Below, one piece after another: positions 24,122 through 59,301 of a stretch of DNA of 64,000 bases (position 1 is its first letter; the number at the start of each line of letters is the position of its first letter). The stretch is taken from positions 62,001 to 126,000 of the forward strand of contig SUTF01000001.1 of the NCBI GenBank assembly GCA_015063005.1. The letters run 5' to 3'. This DNA comes from Methanobrevibacter millerae (GTDB taxonomy: Archaea > Methanobacteriota > Methanobacteria > Methanobacteriales > Methanobacteriaceae). Under the pieces are notes generated by a model that did no database searches, was not told the origin of the DNA, and saw only the letters and a list, made by a program, of their open reading frames with translations. A program made the translations under genes and the position numbers.

Positions 24122-27100
24122 TTATTTTTTTCTTCTTAAAGTTCCAACAGCCAAGGTAAATAATGCTAGCAATACCATTATTAATGGATTACCAGTAGCT
24201 GGAGTTACATCAACAGCTTTTGTAGCTGGAACTGGAGGTTCAACATCAGGAACGTCTTCAACTACAATATAGTCAGAGTCATTGTTGTTGGTCATGTTAG
24301 GATCATATGTATCACTGACTACTCTTGCCTCATTGACTATTGTACCTGTAGCATTTACCAATGTTTGAATTATTAAAATTGCAACATCACCATTTTGCAT
24401 GTCACCAATAGTCCAAACACCAGTATTAGGGTCAAATGAACCAGTTGTTAAATCATATGCAACCAAAATTAATGCATTGGATAAAACATCACTAGCTCTT
24501 GTGTTAATTGCAGTATCAGGACCTAAATTAGTAACTTTAATACTCCAAGTTACATATTCTCCATCAATAGCTATTACAACTTTTTCTATGGATAAATCCG
24601 CTGAAGGACTTACATTAGTAGTGTTGTTAGCATTGTTGTTATCCGAATTAGGATCATAAGTACTGCTGTTAACAACAGCAACATTTAAGATTTCCTGATT
24701 GGAGATATTTACCAAAGTTTTAATAGACAAAGTAGCTGTCTTATTATAAGCTAAATTACCAATAGTCCAAACTCCTGTTGCCGCATCATAGCTGCCTATT
24801 GAAGCCTCACTGGATTGGAAAACAAGACCAGACGGTAAGTTATCAACAACAATGACATTTTCACTGTCAGATGGACCACTATTAGTTACGATTATAGTCC
24901 ATGTAATCACATCACCGAAATTAGGATTTGAATCGCTTACAAGTTTTACAACTGATAAATCAGCAACAGGATTAACGACAGTTGTGTTGTTTGCTGTCTT
25001 ATTTTCTGATTCAGTAGAACCTACAGTTACGATATTGGTAAAGTTACCTACTTCAGTAGTGTTGAAGCTTACAATTAAGGTAACTGCCTCATGTACATTT
25101 AAGACTTTATTTAAAGTCCAGATGTTTTTACCGTTTACAACAGCATGTGTCCAATCATTGTTTTTAACATATGAATCATAAGTCAAACCATCATAAGAAG
25201 TTTCTTCAATAACCACATTATGTAAAGCAACTTCGCCAGTGTTTCTAACAATAATTTCAAATGAAGTTTGGTTCCCAACAGAAACGATAGGAGTTAAAGC
25301 AATTTTTTGAACATCCAATTTAGGCTCTGAAACCTTAGTTGTATTGTTAGTGGTTTTGTTTTCAGTTTCATCTGAACCTGCAACCACGACATTGGTAAAG
25401 TTACCTTTACCTGTAGTGTTGAACACAACAAAGAATCCTACAATTTCATTAACAGCCAAATCAGAGTTTAAAGTCCATCTGTGTTTACCGTCAACAACAG
25501 AATGAGTCCACAATACATTATCCAAGTATGAATCATATATCAAACCATCATAAGAAGACTCCTCAACAAACACATTAGTCAATACAGCCTCACCGACATT
25601 TCTAACAACAATCTCGAAAATAACCTGATCACCAACCAAAACAACAGGAGTCAAAGTAATCTTCTCAACATCCAATTTGCCTTCAACGACAGTAGTGGTA
25701 TTATTAGTAGTCTTATTCTCAGTCTTATCTGAACCTGCAACAACAACATTCGTGAAATTACCAGAGCGGGTAGTGTTGAATGTTACGGTGAATCTATTTT
25801 CACCGCCAATAGCTAAAACACCATTGTATTTGAAAATATTACCTTCCTTATTCCAATTAACGCCATTAAAGCTGTCGTAAACTAAACCGTCGAAAGACTT
25901 TTCTTCAACAAATACGTCATCCAAAGCACAGTCACCAGTGTTTCTAACGATAATTTCAAAGACAACTTGTTCACCCAAATGAGCAATAGGAGTTACAGTA
26001 ATCTTTTCAACAGTCAAATTAGGACTGTAAACTGTAGTAGTATTGTTAGTGGTCTTATTTTCAGTCTTATTAGAACCTGAAACAATCACATTAGTGAAAT
26101 TACCAGACCTAGTAGTATTAAACGCAACAGTAAAACTTGAAACATCACCAGCAGCTAAAACACCACCATAAGTGAAAATATTATCCGCATAATTCCAGCC
26201 ATCACCATCGAAACTATCATAAACTAAACCGTCAATAACACTTTCCCTAACAAACACACCATCCAAATCACAATCACCAGTATTTCTAACAACAATCTCA
26301 AAGACAACCTGCTCACCCAAATAAGCAACAGGAGTCAAAGTGGTTTTTGTTACATTCAATTGAGGATTGTGAGGATTGGTAGTGTTGTTAGCAATATTAT
26401 TTGATTCGTTAGAATCAGGAGTGGTACTGTTAACGACTGCTACATTTATAACCGTGACATTGCTTATATTAACCAAAGTAATGATGTTTAAAATAGCTGT
26501 TTGAGTATTGATTAAATCTCCGATAGTCCAAATACCACTTGTTGCATTATAATTTCCATCAGATTCTTTGAATATTAATCCATTAGGTAATTTATCTTCA
26601 ACATAAACATTTTTTGCAGTTGCTGGGCCATTGTTTGTTACGATTATTGTCCAAACAATTTCTTCACCATATTTAGGATTTTTATTTGAAACTAATTTAA
26701 CTACAGATAAGTCAGCACCAACCACATTAGTTGTATTGTTTGCTGATTTATTTTCTGAGCCGCTACTGTTAGCTACAACAACATTAGTGAAATTACCTAT
26801 TTTAGTCGTATTGAATATCACGAAGAAATTTGCGGTTTTTTTAGCCTCCAAAGTTGAATTATATGTCCAGCTCAAACCATCATTCTTAATCCATTTATAA
26901 GTATTGTCATACCAGCCAGCATAGGTTAAACCTTCAAATTCTTTTTCATATACTGTAAGATCATTTAATTCAATGTTTCCATAGTTGTTTACGACAATTT
27001 CAAATATTACCTGTTCGCCAGCGACTACTGTATTATTGACAGTAATCTTTTTGACATCAAATTCAGGTTTTACAACATCAATACTATCATTAGAAGTCTT

Positions 27101-30100
27101 GTTTGGAATAACATCACTGGTTAATGTCACGAAATTATTAAAGTGACCGACCTTAGTAGTATTGAATGCTACAAAGAAACCAGTAACAACGCCAGGAGAT
27201 AAAAATGAAGTAAATGTCCAACTATGCTTACCAGTTTGATTCCAGTAACCAGTATCATCATAAATTCTGTCGAATACAAGACCATCATCAAAGTTCTCAT
27301 GAACAGTGAAATTACGTAATGTTACATCACCAGTATTTCTGATAATAATTTCAAAGTAAGCAATATCACCTAAAGGAATGATTCTATTAACTGTAAGCTT
27401 TTCAATAGTGTAGTCTGGTTTTACTACATCAACAGTATCGTTTGAAGTCTTGTTAGGAATATCATCACCTGTTAAAGTCACGACATTAGTAAAGTGACCG
27501 ACCTTGGTAGTATTGAATGTTACAAAGAAACCAGTGACAACACCCGGAGATAAATAAGAATTAAATGTCCAACTGTGATTACCCGTCTTACTCCACAAAC
27601 CAGTATCATCATACCAGTTATTGTAAACAAGCCCATCATCAAAGAAAGTTTCATGAACTGTGAAATTACGTAGGGTTGTTTCACCCGTGTTTCTTATAAT
27701 AATATCAAAGTATGCACCTTCACCTAAAGTAACAACCTTATTAACAGTGACCTTTTCAATAGTGTAATCAGGTTTTAAAACTGTTACTGTATCGTTTGCA
27801 GTTTTGTTAGGAACCTCATTTGAATTGACTACAATCACATTTGTAAAATTACCTGCTTTAGTGGTATTGAATACTACAAAGAATCCAACATATTCATTAG
27901 GCTCTAAACTGGTTTTTAAAGACCAGGTTAAATCCCTGTTTTTAGTCCATGATCCTGTGTCATCATACCATCCTGCATAAGTTAAGCCTTCAAAGGATTT
28001 CTCTTCAACGACAACATTAGTCAAGGAAACCTTTCCAGGATTTCTAACAAGAATCTCAAAGGTAACTTGATTTCCAAGAGTAACTACATCATTTATAGCT
28101 AATTTACCCACTTCCAATTTTGGTTCTACAACTTCTACAGTGTCATTAGTCGTTTTATTTTCTGTTTCATTTGATGTTGCAGTAATGACATTGACCAACT
28201 CACCGGTTTTATTGGTTTCAAAAATTATATAGAAACTAGTAGTCTCTCCTTTATAGAGTGTAGCGTTATATGTGAATGTCATGTCACCATTATAAATCCA
28301 TGTTTCTTCAATATCATAGAAATTAATGAATTTTAAACCGTCATAGGATGTTTCATGAATGGTTACATTATGTAGCCTTTTATCACCAATATTTCGAACA
28401 ACTATTTCAAATGTAACACGGTCTCCAACTGTTACCAATTTTTTTAAAGCGATTTTTTCAACTGACAAGTTAGGATTAGTTGCATTTTCTTCCGGATCAA
28501 CTGGAGGTTTTACATAAACTTCAGTAGTGTTGTTTGCAGTTTTATTTTCAACTTTGTCTGCACCGGCAGTAACGGTATTTGTCCAATTGCCCACTTCAGT
28601 TGCATTGAATACTACAGTTAATGTCGCAACCTGATTTGGTTTTAAAGATGAAACAAATTTCCATCCAGGATTAGTGTCATTGAAATTATATGACCATAAT
28701 CCATTATCGACAAATGTTTTATAAGTCAAGTTTTGATAATCTGTCTCTTCAATGAATAGGCCAGTTAAATCAACCTTACCGACATTTTTTACAATAATCT
28801 GGAACCTAGTTAAGTTATTTAAAGGAACAATAGGATCCAAAGATATTTTCTCAACAGTGAAATCCGGCGCTACAACAGTAGTATTGTTTTTAGCCGTTTT
28901 GTTTTCAGTTGTTTTATTAGATGTTACAACAACCACATTAGTGAAATTACCAACCTTAGTTGCATTAAACACTACAAAGAAACCATGAGTTTGCTGAGTG
29001 GCAAATACACCATCATATACCCAAGAATAATTACCCCGGTATTTCCAATGAGTACCCAAACCATAAGCATGATCAAATACAAGTTCATCAGGAATCTCCT
29101 CTTTGACAACGACATTAGTTAAATCCACAACACCAGTATTTGTAACAACAATCTCAAAGGTAACTTGATCTCCAATAGCTACAAGAGAATTTAATGAAAT
29201 CTTTTCAACAGTGAATTCAGGTTTAACGACTTTTGTAGTATTGTTAGTGGTTTTATTATCCGCATTTTCACTGCCTGCAACAATCACATTAGTGAAATTA
29301 CCTGTCTTAGTGGTGTTGAAGTAAACAGTAAAACCATGAGTCACACCCGGAGCGAATGAAAAACCATAAGTCCATCTGAGTTTACCGTCAACTTCAGACT
29401 CATTCCAAAATCCAAGAGTATTAGCATGATCAAAAATCAAACCTTCATGTTCAAATTCCTCAATAAATACATTAGTCAGATTAACCAAACCAGTATTTCT
29501 CACAATAAGCTCAAAAATAACTTGATCACCTAAAATAACTTGTGGAGTTATGGTAATTTTTTCTACACTAAGTTCTGGTTTAACAACTTTTGTAGTATTG
29601 TTTGCAGTTTTATTATCAGCATTGTCCCCGCCTGCAACAACCACATTAGTAAAATTGCCAACCTCAGTGGTATTGAATACGACAGTGAACCCGTGAGTCA
29701 CGCCAGGAGCAACAGGGAAATCATAAGTCCATCTAGTCTTATTATTAACAGTGGATTCAATCCATAAAAACTCAGTATTAGCATGATCAAAAATCAAACC
29801 TTCATAATCAAATTCATCAACAAACACGTTAGTCACATTTACCAAACCAGTATTTTTGACAATAATCTCAAAAATAACTTGGTCTCCTAAGCTAACCAAA
29901 GGAGTTATGGTGACTTTTTCAACACTAATTTCAGGTTTTACAACAGTTGTGTCATTTTTAGCAGTTTTGTTTTCTGTTTCATCACTGCCAGCAACAACAA
30001 CATTGGTAAAGGTACCGGTTTTGTTTGTATTAAATACGACAGTTAAAATAGTGACTCCATCTATATCCAATTGGTCTTTTAAAGTCCATCTATTTTTACC

Positions 30101-33100
30101 ATTTACAATAGCATGATTCCAGCGAGATTGATTTTGGGCATAGGCAAATTCCAAGCCGTCATATGAAAATTCTTCAATGAAAACATTGTTCAAAGTAGTT
30201 AAACCAGTGTTTCTAACAACAATCTGGAATTTTACCTGTTCGCCAAGAGCAACTAATGGAGTGATTGAGATTTTATTTACAATGAAGTTGGATTCAAGAA
30301 CTTTTGTATCATTTGAAGCATTGTTGTTGCTCATGTTGGAATCCGGTGTGCTTGAGTTTGCAAATACATTATTAACGATTGTGGTATTGTCTTCAATTAT
30401 TTTTGTTAAAATATTCAAAGTTGCTGTGGCTCCTTTTGCCAAATCACCAATATCCCATCTTCCAGTAGCTAAATCATATTTTCCATTTGAATCGTCACTT
30501 ACATATGAAATTCCTGATGGAAGAACATCAATAGCATATGCATCAACTGCAATATCCGGACCGTTGTTGGTAACTTTAATTGTCCATGTTATGGTATCGC
30601 CAACTACAGATACTTTTTGGGAAACTAATTTGATTACACTTAAATCTGAAAGAGTATTGGATTTTGTAGTGTTATTAGCAATGTTGTTGGTTTCGTTTGG
30701 ATCATAAACACTGCTGTTAACGGTAGCTACATTCAATATAGTAGTGTTTGTAATGTTCACGATAGTTCTGATTTGTAAAACTTTTGTATCACCAACATTT
30801 AACTCACCAATATACCAAATGCCCGTAGTTTCATCATAATTTCCATCAGCACCATTGAAGATTAATCCATTTGGCAATTTATCGACAGCATAAGCATCAT
30901 TGACATTGCTTGTACCCTTATTGGTGACTTTGAGAATCCAGACAATTTCATCCCCCAAGTTAGGAGTCTTATTTGAAACCATCTTTTCAATAGCTAAATC
31001 GGCAAGAGGCAATATTTCAAAGTATGTCATGTTAGTGATGAATTTATATAAACCGTCTTCAGCGTGAGTTACGTTTACAGAATAGTTTCCTGGAAGCAGA
31101 CCTTTTTCAGATACTGTCAAGTTACCTAAAATACCTGTTTTGCCAGTGATGTTAATTACAACTTTTCCGGTTTCAAGGTGAGTGACTATTACAGTAATGT
31201 TTTGATTGTCTTCACGAGAATCCTGATAAACAAGAGTACCTCCCTCACTTTCCTCAACACTAGGCTTTGGATTAACAATATTAGGACCGGAATTAGTTCT
31301 ATTATTAACAGAAAGTTCATATGTTACATTCTTAAAGAAAATATTATTTGGACTGCCGTCATTATAGATTGCATTAATAATATTGTCCCCTCCTTTATGG
31401 GTAACCTCAATAGTTACATTAGCTTCAGGATCATAATAGAAACGCTTATCATTTGTAATTCCAGTAATAAGATAACTCCATGCCTGATTTTCAATGAAAG
31501 TGTCATCTTCAATTGTTAAATTTTGTCCTCGGTTATATATCGCAGAACCGTTACGTGCGATATTATTTTCGAAATTTGAATAGGAAATATTGGAATTGTT
31601 TCCTTGAATATATACGGCCCCACCTAAACCCTGATTAAGGTCGTCCGTAGAAGCAATAGCTGTATTTGAAGTGAAGTTAGAATTTGTAATTGTCAGATTA
31701 TCCCCTTGAGAGTGAATAGCACCACCATGATAAACAGCACTATTGTTTTTAAATACAGAATTATTGATTAAAGTATTATCTCCTTGCACATAAACACCGG
31801 CACCACCGTTTGATGCAGTGTTGTTTTCAAAAGTTGAATTTTCGATTATCGTATTGTTTCCTATAATATAAACTGTACCTCTTGAACATTCATGATTATA
31901 GAATCCAGTATTTATAACGGATGAATTTTCACCGTGGACATAAATAGCTGAACCATTTCCTTCAGTTGCATAGTTATCCCAAAAAGTACAGTTTATTGCC
32001 TTGTTGTTATTTCCTGTAATGTGTACTGCTCCACCTTCTTCAGTACCGGTATTGTTTCTGAAAGTACAATTCAGTATTGTATTATAATGACCTTCAGGGA
32101 TTCCATCTAAACCATGGTCAATACCAGCGAGCATGTAAGCTGCCCCTTGTTTAGCAGTGTTGTTTTCAAATAAACAGTTTTCAACGACCAAATAATTTTG
32201 GCTGGAACCTATAGCTCCTCCTCTTTCAGTTGCAGTATTATTGATGAAAGTACAGTTTATAATGTTGCTGTGGTAATCTTCAGTGATAGCATCATTACCG
32301 TGAACATAGATTGCTCCACCAATACCTGCCCTACAATTTATAAAATTAGAATTAAATACATCCACACGATTTCCATACTCCCCACCAATACAGATAGCAC
32401 CGGAGTGTCTGTTAGTTGTACAGTTTACAAAGTTACAATTATCTAAGGTTGAATGATATGCTACTACCATAGCACCATATTCATAATTATTTTCATCCTC
32501 TTCAATCAAAGAATGACATTCTGTAAAATTAACATCATTCAAATTACATCCTCTTATAACAAAACCTGCAACATTAAATGAAAAATTTTCAAATTTGACA
32601 TGGGTCAAGTTACAGTTTTGAATAATCATACCATATGCATAATCTTCCCTATAATTTTTAAAGGTTATATTTTCTAAAACACAGTTATAAAATTCACTAC
32701 GCATATCCAAAGTGATAGGAACTACGTTTCCTGCATCAATAACCCCATTTTTGAGAGTTAAATGACCTGCCCTTACTCTTGAATTTCCACCTATTGGAAC
32801 AGCAATTATAGTTTTTCCTTCCAAATCAATAATATCTCCGTCTTGAGCATTATTTATTGCACTGCGAAGATCAGCAAAATAATTACCCTCAACAGTAATT
32901 ATTTTTCCTGATTGAAGAACATTCCCTTCATCTAAACTTGATCCTAAAACATTTTCTCCAACGGTCTTATCAAAATAAACCTCATTTTCCGAAATTGAAA
33001 TCTGGCTTTTTTCATTGTCACTATCATTTGAATAATCAATTTCCTGACTTACTCCATCATCAATAATGGTATTATCTTCAACGATAGCGACTTCAGAAGA

Positions 33101-33217
33101 TATTTCTAAAATATCTGTCGAATTATCATCAACGATTTCTTCTGCAGAAACCGACCCTATTGAGAAAAAAATTATTATCATCAAAGATGATATGATAATT
33201 TTCATTTTTTTATTCAT
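24122..33217 (-). CDS. Giant adhesin-like surface protein: beta-helix plus 19 DUF11 repeats
   Basis: 3031 residues. A signal peptide (about 1-25) is followed by a right-handed parallel beta-helix (about 140-570; repeated GGAIYVHG / NSTFENNTA-type coils), an Ig-like segment (about 650-735), then 19 DUF11-type repeats (about 740-2985) with the recurring VEKIT-x-TP...GDQVIFEI pattern. It ends TPATGNP, a hydrophobic helix and RRKK (residues 3005-3031). N-x-S/T sites are abundant. It is probably displayed on the pseudomurein wall to bind partners. The start ATG at 33217 is set by a G-rich site (GTGGGGG) before it. A TATA-like element is at 33254-33265. Repeats differ enough to be old, unlike those of the second adhesin. 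Confidence 0.85.
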   Translation of the reverse strand: MNKKMKIIISSLMIIIFFSIGSVSAEEIVDDNSTDILEISSEVAIVEDNTIIDDGVSQEIDYSNDSDNEKSQISISENEVYFDKTVGENVLGSSLDEGNVLQSGKIITVEGNYFADLRSAINNAQDGDIIDLEGKTIIAVPIGGNSRVRAGHLTLKNGVIDAGNVVPITLDMRSEFYNCVLENITFKNYREDYAYGMIIQNCNLTHVKFENFSFNVAGFVIRGCNLNDVNFTECHSLIEEDENNYEYGAMVVAYHSTLDNCNFVNCTTNRHSGAICIGGEYGNRVDVFNSNFINCRAGIGGAIYVHGNDAITEDYHSNIINCTFINNTATERGGAIGSSQNYLVVENCLFENNTAKQGAAYMLAGIDHGLDGIPEGHYNTILNCTFRNNTGTEEGGAVHITGNNNKAINCTFWDNYATEGNGSAIYVHGENSSVINTGFYNHECSRGTVYIIGNNTIIENSTFENNTASNGGAGVYVQGDNTLINNSVFKNNSAVYHGGAIHSQGDNLTITNSNFTSNTAIASTDDLNQGLGGAVYIQGNNSNISYSNFENNIARNGSAIYNRGQNLTIEDDTFIENQAWSYLITGITNDKRFYYDPEANVTIEVTHKGGDNIINAIYNDGSPNNIFFKNVTYELSVNNRTNSGPNIVNPKPSVEESEGGTLVYQDSREDNQNITVIVTHLETGKVVINITGKTGILGNLTVSEKGLLPGNYSVNVTHAEDGLYKFITNMTYFEILPLADLAIEKMVSNKTPNLGDEIVWILKVTNKGTSNVNDAYAVDKLPNGLIFNGADGNYDETTGIWYIGELNVGDTKVLQIRTIVNITNTTILNVATVNSSVYDPNETNNIANNTTKSNTLSDLSVIKLVSQKVSVVGDTITWTIKVTNNGPDIAVDAYAIDVLPSGISYVSDDSNGKYDLATGRWDIGDLAKGATATLNILTKIIEDNTTIVNNVFANSSTPDSNMSNNNASNDTKVLESNFIVNKISITPLVALGEQVKFQIVVRNTGLTTLNNVFIEEFSYDGLEFAYAQNQSRWNHAIVNGKNRWTLKDQLDIDGVTILTVVFNTNKTGTFTNVVVAGSDETENKTAKNDTTVVKPEISVEKVTITPLVSLGDQVIFEIIVKNTGLVNVTNVFVDEFDYEGLIFDHANTEFLWIESTVNNKTRWTYDFPVAPGVTHGFTVVFNTTEVGNFTNVVVAGGDNADNKTANNTTKVVKPELSVEKITITPQVILGDQVIFELIVRNTGLVNLTNVFIEEFEHEGLIFDHANTLGFWNESEVDGKLRWTYGFSFAPGVTHGFTVYFNTTKTGNFTNVIVAGSENADNKTTNNTTKVVKPEFTVEKISLNSLVAIGDQVTFEIVVTNTGVVDLTNVVVKEEIPDELVFDHAYGLGTHWKYRGNYSWVYDGVFATQQTHGFFVVFNATKVGNFTNVVVVTSNKTTENKTAKNNTTVVAPDFTVEKISLDPIVPLNNLTRFQIIVKNVGKVDLTGLFIEETDYQNLTYKTFVDNGLWSYNFNDTNPGWKFVSSLKPNQVATLTVVFNATEVGNWTNTVTAGADKVENKTANNTTEVYVKPPVDPEENATNPNLSVEKIALKKLVTVGDRVTFEIVVRNIGDKRLHNVTIHETSYDGLKFINFYDIEETWIYNGDMTFTYNATLYKGETTSFYIIFETNKTGELVNVITATSNETENKTTNDTVEVVEPKLEVGKLAINDVVTLGNQVTFEILVRNPGKVSLTNVVVEEKSFEGLTYAGWYDDTGSWTKNRDLTWSLKTSLEPNEYVGFFVVFNTTKAGNFTNVIVVNSNEVPNKTANDTVTVLKPDYTIEKVTVNKVVTLGEGAYFDIIIRNTGETTLRNFTVHETFFDDGLVYNNWYDDTGLWSKTGNHSWTFNSYLSPGVVTGFFVTFNTTKVGHFTNVVTLTGDDIPNKTSNDTVDVVKPDYTIEKLTVNRIIPLGDIAYFEIIIRNTGDVTLRNFTVHENFDDGLVFDRIYDDTGYWNQTGKHSWTFTSFLSPGVVTGFFVAFNTTKVGHFNNFVTLTSDVIPNKTSNDSIDVVKPEFDVKKITVNNTVVAGEQVIFEIVVNNYGNIELNDLTVYEKEFEGLTYAGWYDNTYKWIKNDGLSWTYNSTLEAKKTANFFVIFNTTKIGNFTNVVVANSSGSENKSANNTTNVVGADLSVVKLVSNKNPKYGEEIVWTIIVTNNGPATAKNVYVEDKLPNGLIFKESDGNYNATSGIWTIGDLINTQTAILNIITLVNISNVTVINVAVVNSTTPDSNESNNIANNTTNPHNPQLNVTKTTLTPVAYLGEQVVFEIVVRNTGDCDLDGVFVRESVIDGLVYDSFDGDGWNYADNIFTYGGVLAAGDVSSFTVAFNTTRSGNFTNVIVSGSNKTENKTTNNTTTVYSPNLTVEKITVTPIAHLGEQVVFEIIVRNTGDCALDDVFVEEKSFDGLVYDSFNGVNWNKEGNIFKYNGVLAIGGENRFTVTFNTTRSGNFTNVVVAGSDKTENKTTNNTTTVVEGKLDVEKITLTPVVLVGDQVIFEIVVRNVGEAVLTNVFVEESSYDGLIYDSYLDNVLWTHSVVDGKHRWTLNSDLAVNEIVGFFVVFNTTGKGNFTNVVVAGSDETENKTTNNTTKVSEPKLDVQKIALTPIVSVGNQTSFEIIVRNTGEVALHNVVIEETSYDGLTYDSYVKNNDWTHAVVNGKNIWTLNKVLNVHEAVTLIVSFNTTEVGNFTNIVTVGSTESENKTANNTTVVNPVADLSVVKLVSDSNPNFGDVITWTIIVTNSGPSDSENVIVVDNLPSGLVFQSSEASIGSYDAATGVWTIGNLAYNKTATLSIKTLVNISNQEILNVAVVNSSTYDPNSDNNNANNTTNVSPSADLSIEKVVIAIDGEYVTWSIKVTNLGPDTAINTRASDVLSNALILVAYDLTTGSFDPNTGVWTIGDMQNGDVAILIIQTLVNATGTIVNEARVVSDTYDPNMTNNNDSDYIVVEDVPDVEPPVPATKAVDVTPATGNPLIMVLLALFTLAVGTLRRKK

Positions 33218-33254
33218 TTTATACCCCCACAATCACTTTTCAATAAATTAGACA

Positions 33255-33941
33255 ATATATAAAATATTGAATTAATTAAAACCATACTTTATTTCATGGT
33301 GAAAGATAGTTGTTAAATAATAATATTGTCCCATTTCTTACAATAACAATAAATTTAAAATTTAAAGTTACATATGTTCTTGATACATTTCGCATATCTT
33401 TATAAAAAATAGTAGACGAATATTCCGATATGTTACAATTTTACTTAAATCTGTATTAAAATAACAATTATTATTTAATTTTTCTTTATATATAAACATT
33501 ATATTATTTATCCATTCTTAGTAGAAAATAAAGCTTTTTAATCTATTTGATAAGTAAGAAAAGTAGAAAAAATCTCCATTAGAAAAATCTATTGTAAAAC
33601 AAAAAATCAGTTTTTCAATACCATTAAAAAAGAATAAATAAACATCAAAAATAAGATTATAATACAATAACCAATATATACCAAATTAACCGTGAAACAA
33701 TTAAAAAGATTGTTGATGTATTATTTACTCTAATCCATGATACTCGTTTTTCGTGAATAATTCAATATAAATTATATTATAGAAATAAACATTCCATAAT
33801 ATACAATATGTTACTTTAATATGATTTAAGTTTATATTGTAACTATTACCGAAAACAATACTATTTAATAGAAAGACCTACTTCAAACTATCGAACAGAT
33901 AATTAATATTAAAGTAAAAAATAGTATAAATATTTTATTTT
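33255..33941. other. Long AT-rich intergenic region between the two adhesin genes
   Basis: About 690 bases without an open frame that has a ribosome site. The right-hand (adhesin-1) side holds the TATA-like ATTTTATATATT (minus strand, 33254-33265). The rest is low-complexity A/T sequence; an undetected small RNA cannot be excluded. Confidence 0.5.
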
Positions 33942-33976
33942 AAAATTAAAAAATATAGGGAAAAAAGTATTTCCCT
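33942..33976 (-). terminator. Terminator of the second adhesin gene
   Basis: On the minus strand a perfect 7-bp stem AGGGAAA/TTTCCCT (33957-33976) follows the stop after 6 bases and runs into a T-rich stretch. Confidence 0.65.
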
Positions 33977-33982
33977 AAATGT

Positions 33983-36900
33983 TTATTTTTTTCTTCTTAA
34001 AGTTCCAGCAGCTAATACGAACAATGCAAGTAATACCATGACTAATGGGTTACCGGTAGCTGGAGTTACGTCAACTGGCTCAACATTTTCTTTTACAGGT
34101 TGTTGAGGAGTTTCAGGAACATCACTGACAACTACAGTTTCATTATCATAGTTATTGCTCATGTTAGGATCGAATGTGTCACTGGTTACGTTAGCTTCGT
34201 TGGTGATTTCACCAGTAGTCAATACAATAGTTTGCATTATCATTACTGCTTCTTCACCGTTTTCCATGTCCCCAATAGTCCATACACCAGTGTTTACATC
34301 ATATAATCCTTTTGAAGCATATGAGTTAATGTATTGTAAAGTGTTTGGCAATACATCGATTACTCTTGCATTTACTGCTTTATCCGGACCGTTGTTTACA
34401 ACATAAAGTCCCCAAGTAACTTTATTTCCATCAATAGCATAAACTACTTTAGTAATAGCTAAATCAGCCATATAGGTCTTGTTATCCTCAGGAGTTGTTT
34501 TATTTTCATCAGGAACTGGTCTGTCAATTACAGTAGTTATATTGTTCGCTGGTATGTCTTGGGTCTTATCGCTTGAAGCGAAAACAACATTTGTGAAAGT
34601 TCCAGCTTTATTTGTGTTGAATACAACATAGAAGCTTAAATATTCTCCTGCATATAATGGAGTGTTTAAAGTCCAGGATAAATCATTGTTTTTAGTCCAT
34701 AAATTATTATTATCAATGAAGGAATCATATATGAGACCGTCAAATGAGTTTTCACGGACAGTTACATCATTTAAGACAACTTTTCCTGCATTGTGAACAA
34801 CAATTTCAAATTTAACTTTTTCTCCGACATAGACTGTTCTGTTTACTGTGATTTTTTGAACTTCCAATTTAGGTTGCAATACTTCTACGGTATCGTTAGC
34901 TGTTTTGTTTGGAATTTCAGTGGAATCTGCAACTACAACATTTACGAAGTTACCTGTTGTGGTAGTATTGAATACAACAAAGAATCCTGCATATTCACCA
35001 ACACGTAACGGAGTGTTTAAAGTCCAGGATAAACCACTGTTTTTAGTCCATAAACCAGAATTATCAATGAATGAATCATATACAAGTCCAGCGAAAGAAG
35101 TTTCACGAACTACAACATTGTTTAAGTCTGTTTGACCTAAGTTGTGGACAACAATTTCAAACATTACCTGTTCTCCGACTAAAACTGATCTGTTGATAGT
35201 GATTTTTTCAACAGCGAAATCAGGTTTAATTACTTTTACAGTATCATTAGCTGATTTTTTATCGGTTTCATTGGAATCAACAGATACAATATTGGTAAAG
35301 TCTCCAGGATTGGTGGTTTTAAATACTACATAGAATGAAGCAATTTCACCAACATATAATGGAGAATTCATAGTCCATGTTAAACCGCTGTTTTTAGACC
35401 ACAAACCAGTGTTGTCATACCAGCTGTCATAAGTTAAACCAGTGAATGAATCTTCACTTACAGTTACATCATGCAATACAGTATCACCGGTGTTTGTAAC
35501 AATAATTTCAAATACAGCATTACTTCCGGCAATTACAACTTTATGTAATGCAATTTTTTCAATGTTGATATTTGGATTTTTGGAAGGATCCTCTTCAGGA
35601 GTAGGTTTAGTATTATTGTAAACGATAGTAGTGTTGTTTGCAACTTTATTGTCAGTTTCATCTGAGGATACTGTCACAATGTTTGTGAAGTTACCTACAG
35701 CAACAGTGTTGAAGTTAACAATCAATGTAACCATTTCATTTACATTTAAGACTCTGTTTAAAGTCCATATATTCTTACCGTTTGCTACTGAATGAGTCCA
35801 TAATCCGTTATTTACAAATGAATGGTAAACCAATCCATCGTATGAAGTTTCTTCAAGAACGACATTGTGTAATGGGATTTCTCCAATGTTTTTAACAAGG
35901 ATTTCAAATGAAGTCTGATTTCCAACATGGACAACAGGAGTCAAAGTAATCTTTTGAACATCAATATTTCCTTTGAATACGTCAACGGTATCGTTGTCAG
36001 TTTTGTTAGGGGTTTCGTCTGAGCCAGCTACAATAACATTGACAAATTTACCGGTATTGGTAGTGTTGAATACTACAAAGAATCCTGCATATTCACCAGC
36101 GTATAAAGGAGTGTTTAATTTCCATGACAAGTCGCTGTTTTTGGTCCATAATCCAGTGTGGTCTATGAATGAATCAAATTTAAGACCATCATAAGACTCT
36201 TCACGGACAACAACATTGTTTAAGGTCACTTTTCCGGTATTTTCAACAATAATTTCAAATGTTACTTGGTCACCTACCATAACTGATTTGTTGATGGATA
36301 TTTTTTGAACATCCATTTCAGGTTTAATTACTTCAACAGTATCATTAGCTGATTTTTTATCGGTTTCATTAGAGTCAACTGAAACAATGTTTGTGTATTT
36401 TCCTGGAGTGGTAGTGTTGAATACTACATAGAATGAGGCCATTTCACCAACATACAATGGAGTGTTCAAAGTCCAGGTTAACTCATTATTAGACCATAAT
36501 CCAGTATTATCAAAGAAAGTTGTGTATTCTAAACCAACAAATGAATCTTCGGTTACGGTAACATCATGCAATACAACTTCACCAGTGTTAGTAACTATAA
36601 TTTCAAAGATAGCTTGCTGTCCAACAATCACAACATCATTTAAAGCTATTTTTTCAATGTTTATGTTAGGGTTTTTAGTCGTATTGGATTCAGGTTCCGG
36701 AGTAGTCTTATTGTAAACATTGGTAGTGTTGTTTGCAATCTTATTTTCAGTCTCGGTAGAACCTACAGTTACGATATTAGTAAAGTTACCCACTTCAACA
36801 GTGTTGAAGTTAACAATCAAGTTAACAGCTTCTCTAACGTTTAAGACTTTGTTTAAAGTCCATATATTCTTACCGTTTGCTACTGAATGAGTCCATAATC

Positions 36901-39679
36901 CGTTATTTACAAATGAATCGTAAACCAATCCATCATATGAAGTTTCTTCGAGAACTACATTGTGAAGAGCAACTTCACCAGTGTTTCTAACAACAATTTC
37001 AAATGAAGTTTGGTTTCCAACAGGAACGATAGGAGTCAAAGTAATCTTTTGAACATCCAATTTAGGTTCAACAACCTTAGTAGTGTTGTTGGTAGTCTTG
37101 TTTTCTGTTTCATCAGATCCGGCAACAACAACATTGGTAAAGTTACCTTTCTGGGTAGTGTTGAATACTACAAACAATCCAACGACTTCATTTACAGCTA
37201 AATTAGTGTTCAAGGTCCATGTATTTTTACCGTTTGCAATTGAATGAGTCCAGTATCCGTTGTCAATGAACTTTTCATATTTTAATCCAGCATAGGATGT
37301 TTCTTCAACAAAGACATTGGTTAAAGTAGCTTCTCCAATATTTTTAACGATAATTTCGAAAGTAACTTGGTCTCCAACTAAGACAACAGGATTAATGGTA
37401 ATTTTTCTTACATCCAATTTAGGTTCAACAACGGTAGTGGTGTTGTTGGTAGTCTTGTTTTCAGTTTTGTCAGATCCTGCAACAACAACATTGGTAAATT
37501 TACCTTTCTGGGTAGTGTTGAATGTTACAATTAATGTTTCAACTTCATTAACTGCCAATACTTTGTTTAATGTCCATACATTTTGTTGACCATTATACTT
37601 CCATAATCCATTATCCTCAAAGGAAGCATAAGTCAAACCTTCATAAGACAACTCTTTAACAAATACATTTTCTAAAGCAACATCACCAGTGTTTTTAACA
37701 ATGATTTCGAATTTAACTTGGTCTCCAACTGAAACTTTTGGAGTAATAGTGACTTTTTGAACATCTAATTTAGGCTCCAATACAGTAGTATTGTTGTGAG
37801 TGGTTTTGTTTTCAGTTTCATCAGAACCTGCAACAATAACATTTGTAAAGTTACCTTTTCTAGTAGTGTTGAATACAATGAAGAATCCTTTTACTTCATT
37901 TACAGCCAAATTGCCGTTTAATGTCCATCTGTTTTTATTATTGGTAATTGAATGAGTCCAATATCCATTATCAATGAACTTTTCATATTTTAAACCAGCA
38001 TAGGATGTCTCTTCAACAAAGACGTTAGATAACTCAATATCTCCAGTGTTTCTAACAACGATTTCAAAAGTAACCTGATCTCCAACTAAAACCTTAGGAG
38101 TAATGGTGATCTTTTGAACATCGAATTTACCATCTACAACAGTAGTGGTATTATTAGTTGTTTTGTTATCACTTTCATCTGAGCCTGCAATAATAACATT
38201 GGTAAAGTTACCTTTATGGGTAGTATTGAATACAATAAAGAATCCCATGACTTCATTTACAGCTAAATTGCTGTTTAAAGTCCATCTGTTTTTACCGTTG
38301 GTAACTGAATGAGTCCAATATCCATTATCTAATACTTTTTCAAATTTTAAACCAGCATAGGATGTCTCTTCAACAAAGACATTAGACAAATCAATATTGC
38401 CTGTGTTTCTAACAACGATTTCAAAAGTAACTTGATCTCCAACTAAAACCTTAGGAGTAACGGTAATCTTTTGAACATCCAAATTACCCTTTAAGACAGT
38501 AGTAGTATTATTGGCCTTTTTACTATCTGTCTCATCGGAATCTGCAACTACACAGTTAACAAAAGTACCATTCCTATGAGTGTTGAATGCAATAGTAAAG
38601 CTAGCAGATTCGCCAACTCTCAAAACATCATTATAATAGAAAGTATTGCCATTCCTTCTCCATTTGGTTTTATCATTATAATCGGAAAAAGACAAACCGT
38701 CAGGAATCTGTTCCTCAACAAATACATTATTCAAATTAACGTCACCAGTGTTTCTAACAGTTATCAGGAACAGGGTTTGCTCTCCAACTTTAACATTAGG
38801 AGTTAAAGACTTCTTGTCTACTTCCATACCTGGATTTTTAGGAGTAGGTGGAATTTCTTTTATGATTTTCTTAAATCCGAATAATGTTTGATATGTGGAA
38901 GATGACTTAAAAGCTAAAAATTCGTATTTTACCTCATGAGTATCATCGAGTTTATAGGTTATGCCCTCTTCAGGAATCCATTCCCCGTTGTTATGTCTGT
39001 TAATAATATCATAATAGGCATTTTTTAATATTGGATCTCCATCCAAATCTTGCATACAATATTTATTTGTATCATATTGAGTTAAATACCATATTAACAT
39101 TTGAGTACGTGAGAACGAACCCGCAGCAATTCTCCAAAAACGTACTTTTTCTTGGAATTCTGGCCTATCCGCATAATGAATTACCGCTAATCTTAATTTA
39201 TTATCAACACGAGCTCCCGTTTCAACGTGTGTTAATATGTATTGCTGCTCTGTAATATATGGAGTACCAGATGTTGGAAAAGTACCTAACCTTTTCGCAC
39301 AAAAAGCAGTAAATCCATTAGACATGGAAACATAGTCTGCTCCCCTTCCTTGGGTCACAACAGATTCTCCAAAAGATAAAACTTCCGTATTATCTTTGTT
39401 TGATGTTTTTAAAGTAACAATACCATCTTCAATTATTTCCTCGTTAGATAAGCTCAACGTTTCATTATCACTTATACTTTCTTCACTCGATAAACTCAGC
39501 GTTTGATTATTTTCAATACTTTCTTCGTAAGATAAGCTTAATGCTTCATCTCCTGCCACATAACTTTCTCCAACACTTAAGACAGCAGATTCGGTTATGT
39601 TTTCACTAGCGGAAACTATGCCTAAGCTTAATGATAAAGTTAATAATAAAATTAATCCATATAAAATCTTTTTGTTCAT
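33983..39679 (-). CDS. Adhesin with candidate thioester domain, 13 DUF11 repeats and TPATG tail
   Basis: 1898 residues. Signal peptide (1-25, cleavage near SASEN); a linker with three repeated LSLS-x-EES units; a domain at about 105-270 with FCAKR (Cys127) and SRTQMLIWYL (Gln193) that matches the Cys ... TQxx[IV]W pattern of Gram-positive thioester (TQXA) domains. Thirteen DUF11 repeats follow (from about 284), then TPATGNP (1872-1876), a hydrophobic helix and RRKK. Repeats 6-8 and 9-11 are a recent block duplication. ATG 39679 is chosen because GGTG precedes it and the signal peptide starts there. A covalent host- or surface-binding adhesin is inferred. Confidence 0.82.
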   Translation of the reverse strand: MNKKILYGLILLLTLSLSLGIVSASENITESAVLSVGESYVAGDEALSLSYEESIENNQTLSLSSEESISDNETLSLSNEEIIEDGIVTLKTSNKDNTEVLSFGESVVTQGRGADYVSMSNGFTAFCAKRLGTFPTSGTPYITEQQYILTHVETGARVDNKLRLAVIHYADRPEFQEKVRFWRIAAGSFSRTQMLIWYLTQYDTNKYCMQDLDGDPILKNAYYDIINRHNNGEWIPEEGITYKLDDTHEVKYEFLAFKSSSTYQTLFGFKKIIKEIPPTPKNPGMEVDKKSLTPNVKVGEQTLFLITVRNTGDVNLNNVFVEEQIPDGLSFSDYNDKTKWRRNGNTFYYNDVLRVGESASFTIAFNTHRNGTFVNCVVADSDETDSKKANNTTTVLKGNLDVQKITVTPKVLVGDQVTFEIVVRNTGNIDLSNVFVEETSYAGLKFEKVLDNGYWTHSVTNGKNRWTLNSNLAVNEVMGFFIVFNTTHKGNFTNVIIAGSDESDNKTTNNTTTVVDGKFDVQKITITPKVLVGDQVTFEIVVRNTGDIELSNVFVEETSYAGLKYEKFIDNGYWTHSITNNKNRWTLNGNLAVNEVKGFFIVFNTTRKGNFTNVIVAGSDETENKTTHNNTTVLEPKLDVQKVTITPKVSVGDQVKFEIIVKNTGDVALENVFVKELSYEGLTYASFEDNGLWKYNGQQNVWTLNKVLAVNEVETLIVTFNTTQKGKFTNVVVAGSDKTENKTTNNTTTVVEPKLDVRKITINPVVLVGDQVTFEIIVKNIGEATLTNVFVEETSYAGLKYEKFIDNGYWTHSIANGKNTWTLNTNLAVNEVVGLFVVFNTTQKGNFTNVVVAGSDETENKTTNNTTKVVEPKLDVQKITLTPIVPVGNQTSFEIVVRNTGEVALHNVVLEETSYDGLVYDSFVNNGLWTHSVANGKNIWTLNKVLNVREAVNLIVNFNTVEVGNFTNIVTVGSTETENKIANNTTNVYNKTTPEPESNTTKNPNINIEKIALNDVVIVGQQAIFEIIVTNTGEVVLHDVTVTEDSFVGLEYTTFFDNTGLWSNNELTWTLNTPLYVGEMASFYVVFNTTTPGKYTNIVSVDSNETDKKSANDTVEVIKPEMDVQKISINKSVMVGDQVTFEIIVENTGKVTLNNVVVREESYDGLKFDSFIDHTGLWTKNSDLSWKLNTPLYAGEYAGFFVVFNTTNTGKFVNVIVAGSDETPNKTDNDTVDVFKGNIDVQKITLTPVVHVGNQTSFEILVKNIGEIPLHNVVLEETSYDGLVYHSFVNNGLWTHSVANGKNIWTLNRVLNVNEMVTLIVNFNTVAVGNFTNIVTVSSDETDNKVANNTTIVYNNTKPTPEEDPSKNPNINIEKIALHKVVIAGSNAVFEIIVTNTGDTVLHDVTVSEDSFTGLTYDSWYDNTGLWSKNSGLTWTMNSPLYVGEIASFYVVFKTTNPGDFTNIVSVDSNETDKKSANDTVKVIKPDFAVEKITINRSVLVGEQVMFEIVVHNLGQTDLNNVVVRETSFAGLVYDSFIDNSGLWTKNSGLSWTLNTPLRVGEYAGFFVVFNTTTTGNFVNVVVADSTEIPNKTANDTVEVLQPKLEVQKITVNRTVYVGEKVKFEIVVHNAGKVVLNDVTVRENSFDGLIYDSFIDNNNLWTKNNDLSWTLNTPLYAGEYLSFYVVFNTNKAGTFTNVVFASSDKTQDIPANNITTVIDRPVPDENKTTPEDNKTYMADLAITKVVYAIDGNKVTWGLYVVNNGPDKAVNARVIDVLPNTLQYINSYASKGLYDVNTGVWTIGDMENGEEAVMIMQTIVLTTGEITNEANVTSDTFDPNMSNNYDNETVVVSDVPETPQQPVKENVEPVDVTPATGNPLVMVLLALFVLAAGTLRRKK

Positions 39680-39807
39680 AATTACACCATGCCATAAATA
39701 TAAAATTTTCATTTTAACTTAAATATCACCTGATATGTCAAATTAATAATCTAATACTTTTAAGTTTCTTAATTAATAAAATATGTAAATTATCTGTCTC
39801 TTTTTAT

Positions 39808-42343: not shown

Positions 42344-42994
42344 CTATTTCAAATCTTCAAATAAATCCCAAATTTCAGGATACTTTTTAGAAACTGCTTC
42401 ATCAATCAATATGGAAGCTTCCCTACTAATACTGAATTCAGGTTCTGTTTTTCTTAAGTATCTAAATACTGCTGCAGATCTTGAAGACCATAAGGTAATT
42501 CTTGGATTTTTATCTACAATATCAAGTACTTCAGCTACATTTTCTTGTCTTTTGATTTCTTGTGGATTTGATAAACTGTCTTGACCGTCTTCAGTAGAAG
42601 ATATGTTTTCGGATGAGTCAATATTCTCATCGTTTTCCTCTGTGATTTCCTCATTTGACGTTTCTTCCGGTTTATATTCCTCTTCATCTTCTTGTCCATC
42701 ATCGCTATCAACATCATTTACATTAGATTCATCAACAACAGAATCATCTTCACTAGATTCTTCAATATCATTTACATTAGATTCATCAACAACAGAATCT
42801 TCATCACTAGATTCTTCAATATCATTAATATTAGATTCATCATCTTCACTAACTTTATCAATAGATTCTTCAGAATCGACATTTTCATCTTCTTTCAGCA
42901 TATCCTCTAAAGATAAAGCACTATTGCTATCAAAATCTTCATCATAAAATTCAGGTATTAATGAATCCAAACCTTTACCAAGCCCACGTGCCAT
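42344..42994 (-). CDS. ParA partner with a ParB-like N-terminal motif and acidic linker
   Basis: 216 residues. The start MARGLGKGLDSLIPEF matches the first residues of bacterial ParB/Spo0J (RGLG[KR]GLxxL), the part that contacts ParA. No ParB nuclease or HTH core follows. Residues 25-140 are a Ser/Asp/Glu-rich linker with repeated VVDESNVNDIEESSEDD units. The last 70 residues form a compact domain (EVLDIVDKNPRITLWSS, REASILIDEAVSKKYP). It is 1 base after the parA stop and shares its frame neighbourhood, so the two are one operon. It is either a minimal ParB-like adaptor or a cargo/adaptor for ParA; DNA binding is not shown. Confidence 0.7.
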   Translation of the reverse strand: MARGLGKGLDSLIPEFYDEDFDSNSALSLEDMLKEDENVDSEESIDKVSEDDESNINDIEESSDEDSVVDESNVNDIEESSEDDSVVDESNVNDVDSDDGQEDEEEYKPEETSNEEITEENDENIDSSENISSTEDGQDSLSNPQEIKRQENVAEVLDIVDKNPRITLWSSRSAAVFRYLRKTEPEFSISREASILIDEAVSKKYPEIWDLFEDLK

Positions 42995-42995
42995 C

Positions 42996-43772
42996 CTAAT
43001 CACTTCCGTCTCTTTCTAATATTTCTTTAGCTAATTTTAAATAAGATTTAGTTCCAGTACTATCCGGATCATAAATTAAACATGGTTTACCAAAACTCGG
43101 AGCTTCAGCCAATCTAATATTTCTAGGAATAATAGTTTTAAAAAGGAGATTTGTTTCTCCAAAGTAGTTTTTCAACTCCTTATGAACATCCCTGCTTAAT
43201 CTGGTCCTTTTATCATACAATGTCAATAATACTCCTTTAATTGGAGTAGGGCTCCTAAGTCTTTGTTCTACAAGTTTAATGGTATTAATCAAATCTGCAA
43301 CACCTTCAAGTGCATAATATTCAGCCTGAATAGGTATCAATACACTATCAGATGCAACTAATGCATTTACAGTTAAAACTCCTAGGGAAGGAGGTAAATC
43401 AATGAATATATAATCAAATAATGGAACAACATCCTTTAGCGTTTCTTTTAAGATAATATGATAATTCTCCTTTTGGCTTAATTCAACACCAGCCCCACTT
43501 AATGAAATGTTACTAGGAATAATAAATAAATTCTTAATAAAAGTAGGAATTGTTGCTTTTTTAACATTAATATCCCCAATAATAGCATCATAAATAGTAT
43601 TTTCCAATTCGTTTTTATCTATTCCAAAGCTTGTTGTTGCATTAGCTTGAGGATCCATATCAACAACTAAAACAGATTTTCCCATTACAGCTAATGAAGT
43701 TGCAGTATTTACAACAGTAGTAGTCTTACCACAACCTCCTTTTTGATTCATTACAGCAATTACTTCACTCAT
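42996..43772 (-). CDS. parA: ParA/Soj-family ATPase
   Basis: Deviant Walker-A ATPase that positions DNA or protein cargo by nucleoid binding. 258 residues with NQKGGCGKTTTVVN (about 9-22, signature Lys), VVDMDPQANATTSFG and YIFIDLPPSLGVLTVNAL. It leads an operon with the ParB-N-terminus-like gene. Directly upstream lies the long array of AAGTTA/TAACTT repeats (43797-44258), a possible binding array for this system and likely part of its control region. Confidence 0.92.
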   Translation of the reverse strand: MSEVIAVMNQKGGCGKTTTVVNTATSLAVMGKSVLVVDMDPQANATTSFGIDKNELENTIYDAIIGDINVKKATIPTFIKNLFIIPSNISLSGAGVELSQKENYHIILKETLKDVVPLFDYIFIDLPPSLGVLTVNALVASDSVLIPIQAEYYALEGVADLINTIKLVEQRLRSPTPIKGVLLTLYDKRTRLSRDVHKELKNYFGETNLLFKTIIPRNIRLAEAPSFGKPCLIYDPDSTGTKSYLKLAKEILERDGSD

Positions 43773-43796
43773 TGAATAATTCTCCTAATACAATTT

Positions 43797-44258
43797 AAGT
43801 TATAAGGTCTAACAAATAAATTAGACCCTCTAACTTAAATGAGATAAATTATAAGTTAACATGAATAAGATTTAAATTTTAAGTTAAAAGGTCCAACATC
43901 AAAGTTAAACCCCCTAACTTAAATGAGATAAATTATAAGTTAACATGAATAAGTTAAAAGAAATAACTTAAAACTTCTAATTTTTATCTTAAACCTTCTA
44001 AGTTAGCAGGAATAACTTATAAAGAATAAGTTAAACCCTCCAACTTAAAAGTGATAAATTTTAAGTTAACATGAATAAGTTAAAAGAAATAACTTTTAAC
44101 ATTTAAGTTATTATTAATAAGTTAAAAGATTTAACTTTTAACTGTTAAGTTATATTTTATAACTTCTATCTTATAAAGTATTTGTTTTCACAAATAAGTT
44201 ATTAGTTATAAGTGATAAGTTAGAGAAAAATTAATAGTTATAAGTTATAAGTTATTAC
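43797..44258. repeat. Array of AAGTTA/TAACTT hexamers upstream of parA
   Basis: About 17 AAGTTA and 7 TAACTT hexamers (my count) fill 460 bases of gene-free DNA. A longer unit, starting with (T/C)AACTTAAA and ending in TTAAGTTAACATGAATAAG-type sequence, occurs at 43831, 43915 and 44041. The steps, 84 and 126 bases, are multiples of 42, roughly four helical turns. It is not a CRISPR array (no regular repeat-spacer pattern). Its place upstream of parA suggests a centromere-like or regulatory array; an origin element is an alternative. Confidence 0.8.
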
Positions 44259-44303: not shown

Positions 44304-45605
44304 CTATTTTGCATTTTGCATAGTTCCTTCAAAGTAAGAAGCATATCCTTTTAAATCAAGCATTCCATGACCAGAGAAATTGAATACAATGGTTTTTTCT
44401 TCACCAGTCTCTTTGCATTTCAATGCTTCATCTATTGCAACTTTAATTGCATGGGTAGTTTCAGGTGCAGGAACAATACCCTCAGTACGGGCAAAAGTAA
44501 TTCCAGCTTCAAATACATCTTTTTGATGAACTGCCCTAGGGGAAATATATCCTTCTTTAGTTAAAAGTGAAACAATAGGAGACATTCCATGATATCTTAA
44601 TCCACCGGCATGAACTGATGGTGCAACAAAGTCATGGCCTAAAGTAAACATCTTAAGCATAGGAGTAAATCCATTGACATCTCCAAAGTCATAATCATAA
44701 GATCCTTCAGTTAATGTAGGACAGGCACTAGGTTCAACTGCAATGAATTCAGTATCTGAATTACCTGCAATTTTATCCTTAAGCAATGGGAAAAATGAAC
44801 CTGCCAAGTTACTTCCACCACCTGCACATGCAATCATTACATCAACTTCCTCTTCAGCTTTCTCTAATTGTACTTTAAGTTCCTGACCTATCACGGTTTG
44901 ATGTAACATAACATGGTTTAATACACTACCTAGAGAATATTTAACATCATCATTAAGCAAAGCCTCTTCCATAGCTTCAGAAATAGCTACACCCAATGAA
45001 CCAGGGTGGTCTGGATTTTCCTTAAGAATTTGACGTCCGATTTCGGTATTTTCACTAGGTGAAGCAAAAACCTGACCGTCATAAATATGCATAATATTTT
45101 TCCTGTCCGGCTTTTGATTGAATGATACCTTAACCATATATACAGTACAGTCCAAATCCAGCATATTACAAGCTAAAGATAATGCAGTTCCCCATTGTCC
45201 AGCACCAGTTTCAGTAGTTAACCTTTCAACGCCCTCTTTTTTAGCAAAATATGCTTGAGGAATAGCTGAATTTAACTTATGTGATCCTGTAGGAGAAGTA
45301 TCTTCTCTTTTAAAATAAATCTTAGCAGGGGTGTTTAAAAATTTTTCAAGTCTTGTAGCTCTAAACAAAGGAGAAGGACGACCTACCTGCATATACAATT
45401 CCCTGACTTCCTGAGGAATGTTAATGTATCTGTCAGGTGAAAACTCCTGTTCTAAACCAGCTTTGGTAAAAGCCTTTTGTAAATCTGAAATTTGATCCTT
45501 TCCTTCACTATTTTTTGGTTCTGGAAGTGGATTAGGCAAATCAGCAAGAATATTATACCATTTTTTTGGCACTTCATCAGAATCTAGGGTAATTTTATAA
45601 TTCAT
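44304..45605 (-). CDS. trpB2: Tryptophan synthase beta chain, TrpB2 type
   Basis: PLP enzyme that makes tryptophan from indole and serine; TrpB2 proteins are the long, second form common in archaea and often work without TrpA. 433 residues: the PLP Lys is in [14 protein letters not shown], then [30 protein letters not shown] and the C-terminal [10 protein letters not shown]. The promoter contains TGTACA elements that resemble the TRP boxes bound by TrpY in Methanothermobacter. A T-rich tract follows the stop on the minus strand (44263-44294). Confidence 0.92.
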
Positions 45606-47391: not shown

Positions 47392-47658
47392 TTATTTTTC
47401 AAGCCTAATTTCAATAATGGAAACGTTGGTTTTTTCGTTGTTATAGTTTTCAACTTCTTCGGTGGAAATTTGAATATCACCAACAACAGCATCTTGAACA
47501 AAACTGTTTCTAACAATTTCAGCAGTGTCTACAGCACGACTAATGGCTTTTCCTCTAGCCCTTAAAGTGACTGATTCATTATCATTAAATTGTGTTACAA
47601 CAGCTAATACATAGTTCATTACTGGCTTATTTCCTATAAATATAGTATTTTCTTCCAT
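47392..47658 (-). CDS. albA: DNA/RNA-binding protein Alba
   Basis: Small chromatin and RNA-binding protein. 88 residues with the conserved [14 protein letters not shown] start, [20 protein letters not shown], and a beta-hairpin with basic tips. The Lys in GNKPVMN and its surround are typical. GGAGGATT sits 4 bases before the ATG. Together with the histone at 62778 it shows both chromatin proteins are used. Confidence 0.92.
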
Positions 47659-54835: not shown

Positions 54836-54905
54836 AATTATAAGTTATAAGTTATAACTAATAATCTCTGAAGAAATACTTATAAGTTATAAGTGATAAC
54901 AATAA
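54836..54905. repeat. TTATAAGTTATAAGTTATAA repeats upstream of gatA
   Basis: Overlapping TATAAGT/TAACTT hexamers, like those in front of parA, occur at 54840-54900 (AAGTTATAAGTTATAACT and CTTATAAGTTATAAGTGATAAC). There are 6-8 copies in 60 bases. This is either a shared protein site or low-complexity A/T sequence. Confidence 0.5.
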
Positions 54906-59110: not shown

Positions 59111-59134
59111 TAAAAAAAATAATCTACTTATTCT
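59111..59134 (-). terminator. U-tract after the FMN riboswitch (possible attenuator)
   Basis: Immediately behind the last riboswitch helix, the RNA reads AAUAAGUAGAUUAUU then UUUUUU: a short AAUAA/UUAUU stem and eight U in a row. In archaea U-tracts can stop transcription, so ligand binding may decide read-through to ribB. This is inferred from position only. Confidence 0.45.
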
Positions 59135-59260
59135 CTTTCATCCGGACTTTTACCGTCGGTTTTGGAATCTCACCAAATCAACACATTGACCTTCGTGCTC
59201 ATGGACTTATTTATATTAAAATCACCACCGGTGGGGAATCACACCCCGCCCTGAGAACGT
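59129..59260 (-). ncRNA. FMN riboswitch (RFN element) upstream of ribB
   Basis: The minus-strand RNA has the RFN core pieces in order: AGGGCGGGGUG, AUUCCCCACCGGUGGU, GUCCAUGAGC, AUUUGGUGAGAUUCCAAA, ACCGACGGU and AAAGUCCGGAUG. The closing helix P1 is UUCUC/GAGAA at the two ends (59253-59257 with 59130-59134). These match the FMN-sensing aptamer. It lies between ribK and ribB and should shut down ribB when FMN is plentiful. Confidence 0.9.
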
Positions 59261-59301
59261 ATTAAAAAATATATCAATCATATATAAAATACTTTATGGT
59301 A

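Follow-up and report, generated by a model that had tools for sequence, protein, structure and literature searches.

What binds the dense array of short repeats that lies directly upstream of a parA gene in this methanogen, and what is the array for? An earlier note on the window (the whole 64,000-nucleotide stretch of DNA analyzed here, from a Methanobrevibacter genome of 20 contigs) had counted about 24 AAGTTA/TAACTT hexamers in front of this gene and suggested a partition or origin-binding site, phased at 42 bp and bound by a new protein. The array and the two genes beside it are arranged as follows.

42344 to 42994, minus strand: segB, with an ATG start giving MARGLGKGLDSLIPE; ParB-like tip, long acidic linker and C-terminal SegB ribbon-helix-helix (RHH) domain
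42996 to 43772, minus strand: segA, encoding a ParA/Soj-type Walker ATPase of 258 aa, with the array directly upstream
43796 to 44222, unstranded: main heptad array, 61 contiguous 7-bp slots of TAA-S-TTA; presumed SegB site, 24 bp to the segA start codon
44234 to 44261, unstranded: distal block of four heptads (ATAGTTA TAAGTTA TAAGTTA TTACTTA), with the lattice offset by 4 bp

Analysis of the 531-bp intergenic region (19% GC) between segA and the gene at 44304-45605, which we take to be trpB-like, revealed exactly 24 hexamers with starts from 43797 to 44249 (17 forward and 7 reverse), compared to an average of 2.6 and a maximum of 8 in 1000 dinucleotide-preserving shuffles. The three long copies described earlier, at steps of 84 and 126 bp, were also found, with AACTTAAATGAGATAAATTATAAGTTAACATGAATAAG at 43832 and 43916 and a near copy at 44042, and TRF gave periods of 84, 126 and 42 for the array. 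The proposed 42-bp phasing gave way to a shorter unit: base identity was 0.46-0.55 at each lag from 7 to 140 that is divisible by 7, compared to ~0.34 at adjacent lags, indicating a true period of 7 bp and ruling out 42 bp as the basic unit, as every multiple of 7 was equally strong. The periods of 42, 84 and 126 correspond to 6, 12 and 18 heptads and are segmental duplications of later date. A single register modulo 7 accommodated 22 of the 24 hexamers, the remaining two falling on the shifted distal lattice, and the lattice score of the array was 220.9, compared to a maximum of 19.4 in shuffles. The repeat unit is thus a heptad, the pseudo-palindrome TAA-S-TTA, whose central G or C is the sole difference between orientations, so that both strands share a common register; heptads in both orientations fill the main array without spacing. 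A search of the array region for known RNA elements and tRNAs found none.

The gene order, with segB directly downstream of or overlapping segA, was kept in most relatives examined; in the window, an alternative GTG start for segB at 43003, three codons upstream of the ATG, would create an overlap with segA if used. The ParA protein matched the profiles of 8ray ParA (1.7e-72) and Soj (3.9e-62) but that of SegA (7dut) at 1.6e-17 only, so that, by these matches, bacterial Soj is a nearer relation than Sulfolobus SegA. Its nearest neighbor, at 98% identity, came from a goat-rumen Methanobrevibacter MAG.

The product of the second gene (P0001) gave nothing significant in searches of Pfam and NCBIfam families. 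As the earlier note had stated, the known ParB DNA-binding domain is absent: Pfam showed no ParB_N domain in this protein, and PF02195 had no match in its genome. However, a profile built from 47 relatives for the last 70 residues of the protein matched the SegB crystal-structure sequences 7dv2 and 7duv at E values of 8.1e-11 and 1.6e-10, with no other credible match in the PDB, identifying the partner of ParA, at the level of sequence, as SegB, a known archaeal RHH family of centromere-binding proteins with solved structures (7DV2, 7DUV). The predicted binder is therefore this neighboring protein rather than the new one that had been expected. An AlphaFold model of the C-terminal domain contained helices at residues 24-36 and 42-57 preceded by an unpaired KNPRITLWS segment, a modeled fold as expected for a single chain of an RHH dimer. 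The best structural match of the model was chain 7dv2_C of the SegB-DNA complex (1.9 Å over 50 residues, Z 4.3), found by a second aligner only, whereas Foldseek with the 69-residue monomer model gave no significant match; because a Z of 4.3 is modest, the SegB identity rests on the sequence match. Two segments of SegB bear on its presumed function.

42347 to 42553, minus strand: SegB C-terminal domain, predicted RHH, with the KNPRITLWS ribbon segment; profile match to 7dv2/7duv and model rmsd of 1.9 Å
42953 to 42994, minus strand: SegB N-terminal tip MARGLGKGLDSLIP, which corresponds to the tip by which bacterial ParB activates ParA

The tip is of the ParA-activating type (GLG[KR]GL.ALI in ParB), and MARGLGKGLDSLIP equals the tips of ParBs encoded beside the closest bacterial ParA matches (e.g. 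MAVKRGLGKGLDSLIP in L102); in bacteria, the N-terminal tip of ParB activates ParA (PMC12462528). The acidic linker that follows is made of 54-bp (18-codon) tandem repeats (window 42707-42872), and its length is highly variable among relatives, with SegB ranging from 104 to >320 aa. A second, diverged SegB-like domain was present in one genome of genus g15 (G134, C1:478550-478738, E 3e-17), and a search for plasmid homologues of SegB found none.

Array conservation was addressed by scanning the DNA upstream of segA with a position matrix derived from the array of the window, the reversed-matrix control remaining at noise. Heptads preceded segA in nearly all Methanobacteriota examined, bearing out the expectation that the array would be conserved upstream of parA in relatives; the exception was G138, in which none were found before segA. 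Nearly all Methanobrevibacter loci showed strong autocorrelation at 7, 14, 21 and 28 bp 5′ of segA, and Methanobrevibacter-type genera had 13-82 heptads at this position, including 76 in G041, 55 in G037, 82 in G102 and 13-46 in the other long-array genomes. Shorter versions were found in families f2 and f3, which include Methanothermobacter-like genomes and G148 (8-10 heptads), and in Methanosphaera- and Methanobacterium-like genera (3-6 heptads). SegB itself was encoded by 135 of the 151 Methanobacteriota genomes, with every one of the 20 sampled genera represented.

Among the Thermococcaceae, SegB was found in 12 of the 61 genomes sampled, and each of these 12 had 3-6 heptads in the stretch from about −70 to −29 relative to segA. 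The exact tandem pattern WAASTTATAASTTA occurred in 12/12 SegB-containing genomes versus 1/24 genomes lacking SegB (Fisher p 1e-8, uncorrected for kinship and overstating independence, as the SegB-containing genomes may represent few lineages). Additional heptad sites were clustered around segAB in five single-contig genomes. The patchy occurrence of SegB in this family suggests that segAB has been lost or transferred repeatedly, its sites going with it.

These comparisons bear on the possibility that slippage has merely expanded a neutral, AT-rich tandem repeat, to which general chromatin proteins such as histones or Alba bind. The local GC content of 19%, the duplicated 84-, 126- and 42-bp units and an Alba gene 3 kb away would fit such an origin, but the heptad and its 7-bp lattice persist across two archaeal classes, GC-richer genomes included, the heptad co-occurs with SegB, and the array is unique in G037, making this explanation highly improbable.

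The complete genome of this relative (1,951,395 bp) was scanned whole for the array and for GC skew. The array upstream of segA scored 222, compared to 15.7 for the next site and 20.1 for the reversed-motif control. The cumulative GC-skew minimum coincided with the Orc1/Cdc6 gene, 23 kb from the array, so that the check on GC skew and Orc1/Cdc6 position called for in the earlier note placed the array near the origin. In most Methanobacteriota genomes with a measurable distance, segAB lay 9-42 kb from the main Orc1/Cdc6 gene, with exceptions at 73, 84, about 200 and about 310 kb; the distance was about 21 kb in the genome of the window. Since segAB is far from Orc1/Cdc6 in Thermococcaceae, the origin proximity of the array is lineage-specific.

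An AT-rich, repeat-dense array near Orc1/Cdc6 could also be an element of the replication origin bound by Orc1/Cdc6 itself. However, in G037 the array lies about 23 kb from both the orc1/cdc6 gene and the minimum of the GC skew, the 20 kb containing the orc1/cdc6 gene of the window's genome (L243) held no heptad array, and in Thermococcaceae the array accompanies segA rather than cdc6, the two genes being far apart. The origin (ORB) reading was set aside on the basis of this distance and the lack of an array beside the genome's own cdc6, leaving only a very slight chance that the array is bound by Orc1/Cdc6. Thus, of the two roles proposed earlier, binding at the origin was not supported, whereas a partition site was, by conservation 5′ of segA, proximity to the origin, uniqueness in G037 and co-occurrence with SegB.

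A further site was found within the window, and G039, a close relative, has it too, equally far from the main array.

54841 to 54903, unstranded: satellite heptad site of about 9 slots, separated from the main array by 10.6 kb in the direction of Orc1/Cdc6 and positioned 5′ of a gatA-like amidase gene

The satellite is pertinent to the strongest competing explanation, in which the array is a transcriptional operator only, with SegB autoregulating segAB and segregation proceeding via other sites or none. The main array reaches to 24 bp from the segA start and must therefore overlap the promoter, the shorter arrays, with 3-10 heptads between −20 and −100, seem operator-sized, and autoregulation was left open in Sulfolobus (PMC5120986; PMC12284271). 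In contrast, up to 76-82 heptads (>500 bp) are more than an operator requires, the satellite lies 10.6 kb away upstream of a different gene in two genomes, several sites in Thermococcaceae lie as much as hundreds of kb away from segAB, and G037 has no second array that could serve as the centromere. We consider an exclusively regulatory function unlikely, although autoregulation of the operon is also probable given that the array abuts segA.

Comparison with known systems suggested how such an array could be read. As in the SegAB system of Sulfolobus/Saccharolobus solfataricus, the locus combines a segA-segB operon, a SegB with an RHH domain (7dv2/7duv) and sites directly 5′ of segA. The published SegB consensus TCTAGASTCTAGA and high-affinity site GTAGAGTCTAGACT (PMC12284271) can, in a reading of our own, each be read as two abutting AGASTCT heptads with centers 7 bp apart, and the 13-bp site TCTAGA-S-TCTAGA would thus share its architecture with a pair of abutting pseudo-palindromic heptads, each centered on G/C. 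In contrast to the discrete 13-bp elements scattered over the Sulfolobus chromosome (39 peaks, 46 sites; PMC12284271), the window contains a single dense array of about 60 heptads with a different core, TAASTTA, presumably read by a SegB that has a bacterial ParB-type tip and long acidic linker and is paired with a Soj-like SegA. Chromosome-wide dispersal was not found, with one array in G037 and a small number of satellites in the genome of the window and in Thermococcaceae; dispersal is described for Sulfolobus but is no defining feature of SegAB. Likewise, that SegA is not nearest to Sulfolobus SegA is a lineage difference outside the functional definition of SegAB. As judged from its letters, the heptad consensus is unlike that of Sulfolobus SegB, a counterpoint to binding by SegB.

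In the delta/omega/parS system of plasmid pSM19035, each RHH ParB dimer occupies one 7-bp repeat, and at least four unbroken repeats are needed for ParA activation (PMC9499535). The two systems have in common unspaced 7-bp repeats in both orientations beside a ParA gene, at least four of them contiguous (61 here), and a reader that is an RHH ParB in the plasmid and a predicted RHH protein here. The plasmid system differs in its consensus WATCACW, in having 7-10 heptads per site, in being plasmid-borne and in its short RHH protein. Omega was absent from the SegB profile matches up to an E value of 10, RHH families often being too diverged for sequence search. No SegB-omega sequence relationship was detected; the array would work like omega/parS without being a member of that group. 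Given the paired abutting heptads of the Sulfolobus sites and the one RHH dimer per repeat of pSM19035, the lattice logic is plausibly general to SegB, with the core changed in euryarchaea. With chromosomal ParABS (Soj/Spo0J/parS), the locus shares a Soj-like ParA, a ParB-type N-terminal tip and, in Methanobacteriota, an origin-proximal site; unlike ParABS, SegB here lacks the ParB_N/CTPase domain, the site is a heptad array and the predicted reader is an RHH domain.

We propose that the array is, with high probability, a centromere-like site bound by the neighboring SegB, omega/parS-like in its working. This proposal is supported by the lattice, its conservation, its uniqueness in the complete relative, its proximity to the origin, the SegB and ParA homologies and the co-occurrence of SegB and heptads. 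The ribbon of each SegB dimer would insert into one TAASTTA heptad, and dimers packed against each other in either orientation along the uninterrupted 7-bp lattice could form a long nucleoprotein filament. The N-terminal tips (GLGKGLDSLIP), held at high local density, would then face nucleoid-bound SegA and may stimulate its ATPase, such that the origin regions of sister chromosomes are pulled or positioned. A broader proposal, which we favor by a small margin only, is that euryarchaeal SegB is a chimera of a bacterial ParB tip and an archaeal RHH domain, with a bacterial-type Soj partner, and that in Methanobrevibacter it polymerizes on a single origin-proximal heptad-lattice centromere grown from an ancestral state of about 4-10 heptads to as many as about 80. 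If true, partition sites from Sulfolobus to methanogens would rest on one and the same 7-bp RHH lattice.

The appearance of archaeal centromeres has been named as an open question (PMC5120986), and a study of SegAB from 2025, which detected no SegB site close to segAB of Thermococcus sibiricus, predicted that the site there would be divergent (PMC12284271). The TAASTTA heptad is a direct candidate both for that divergent site and for an archaeal centromere sequence, and a single unit, the 7-bp pseudo-palindrome with a central G/C, would also explain the Sulfolobus 13-mer. Although SegB sites of this kind were already known in Sulfolobus, the dense heptad-array form and a SegB with a bacterial ParB tip are new, and the switch from dispersed sites to a single dense origin-proximal array is seen in the main methanogens of animal guts.

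Finally, the window contained other features in addition to this locus. The Alba chromatin-protein gene is located at 47392-47658, about 3 kb from the array. Two giant neighboring genes (24122-39712) encode adhesin-like surface proteins (3036 and 1909 aa) that carry 13-17 DUF11 repeats, and an FMN riboswitch (RF00050, 109.7 bits) lies at 59126-59262 on the minus strand of this archaeal genome.
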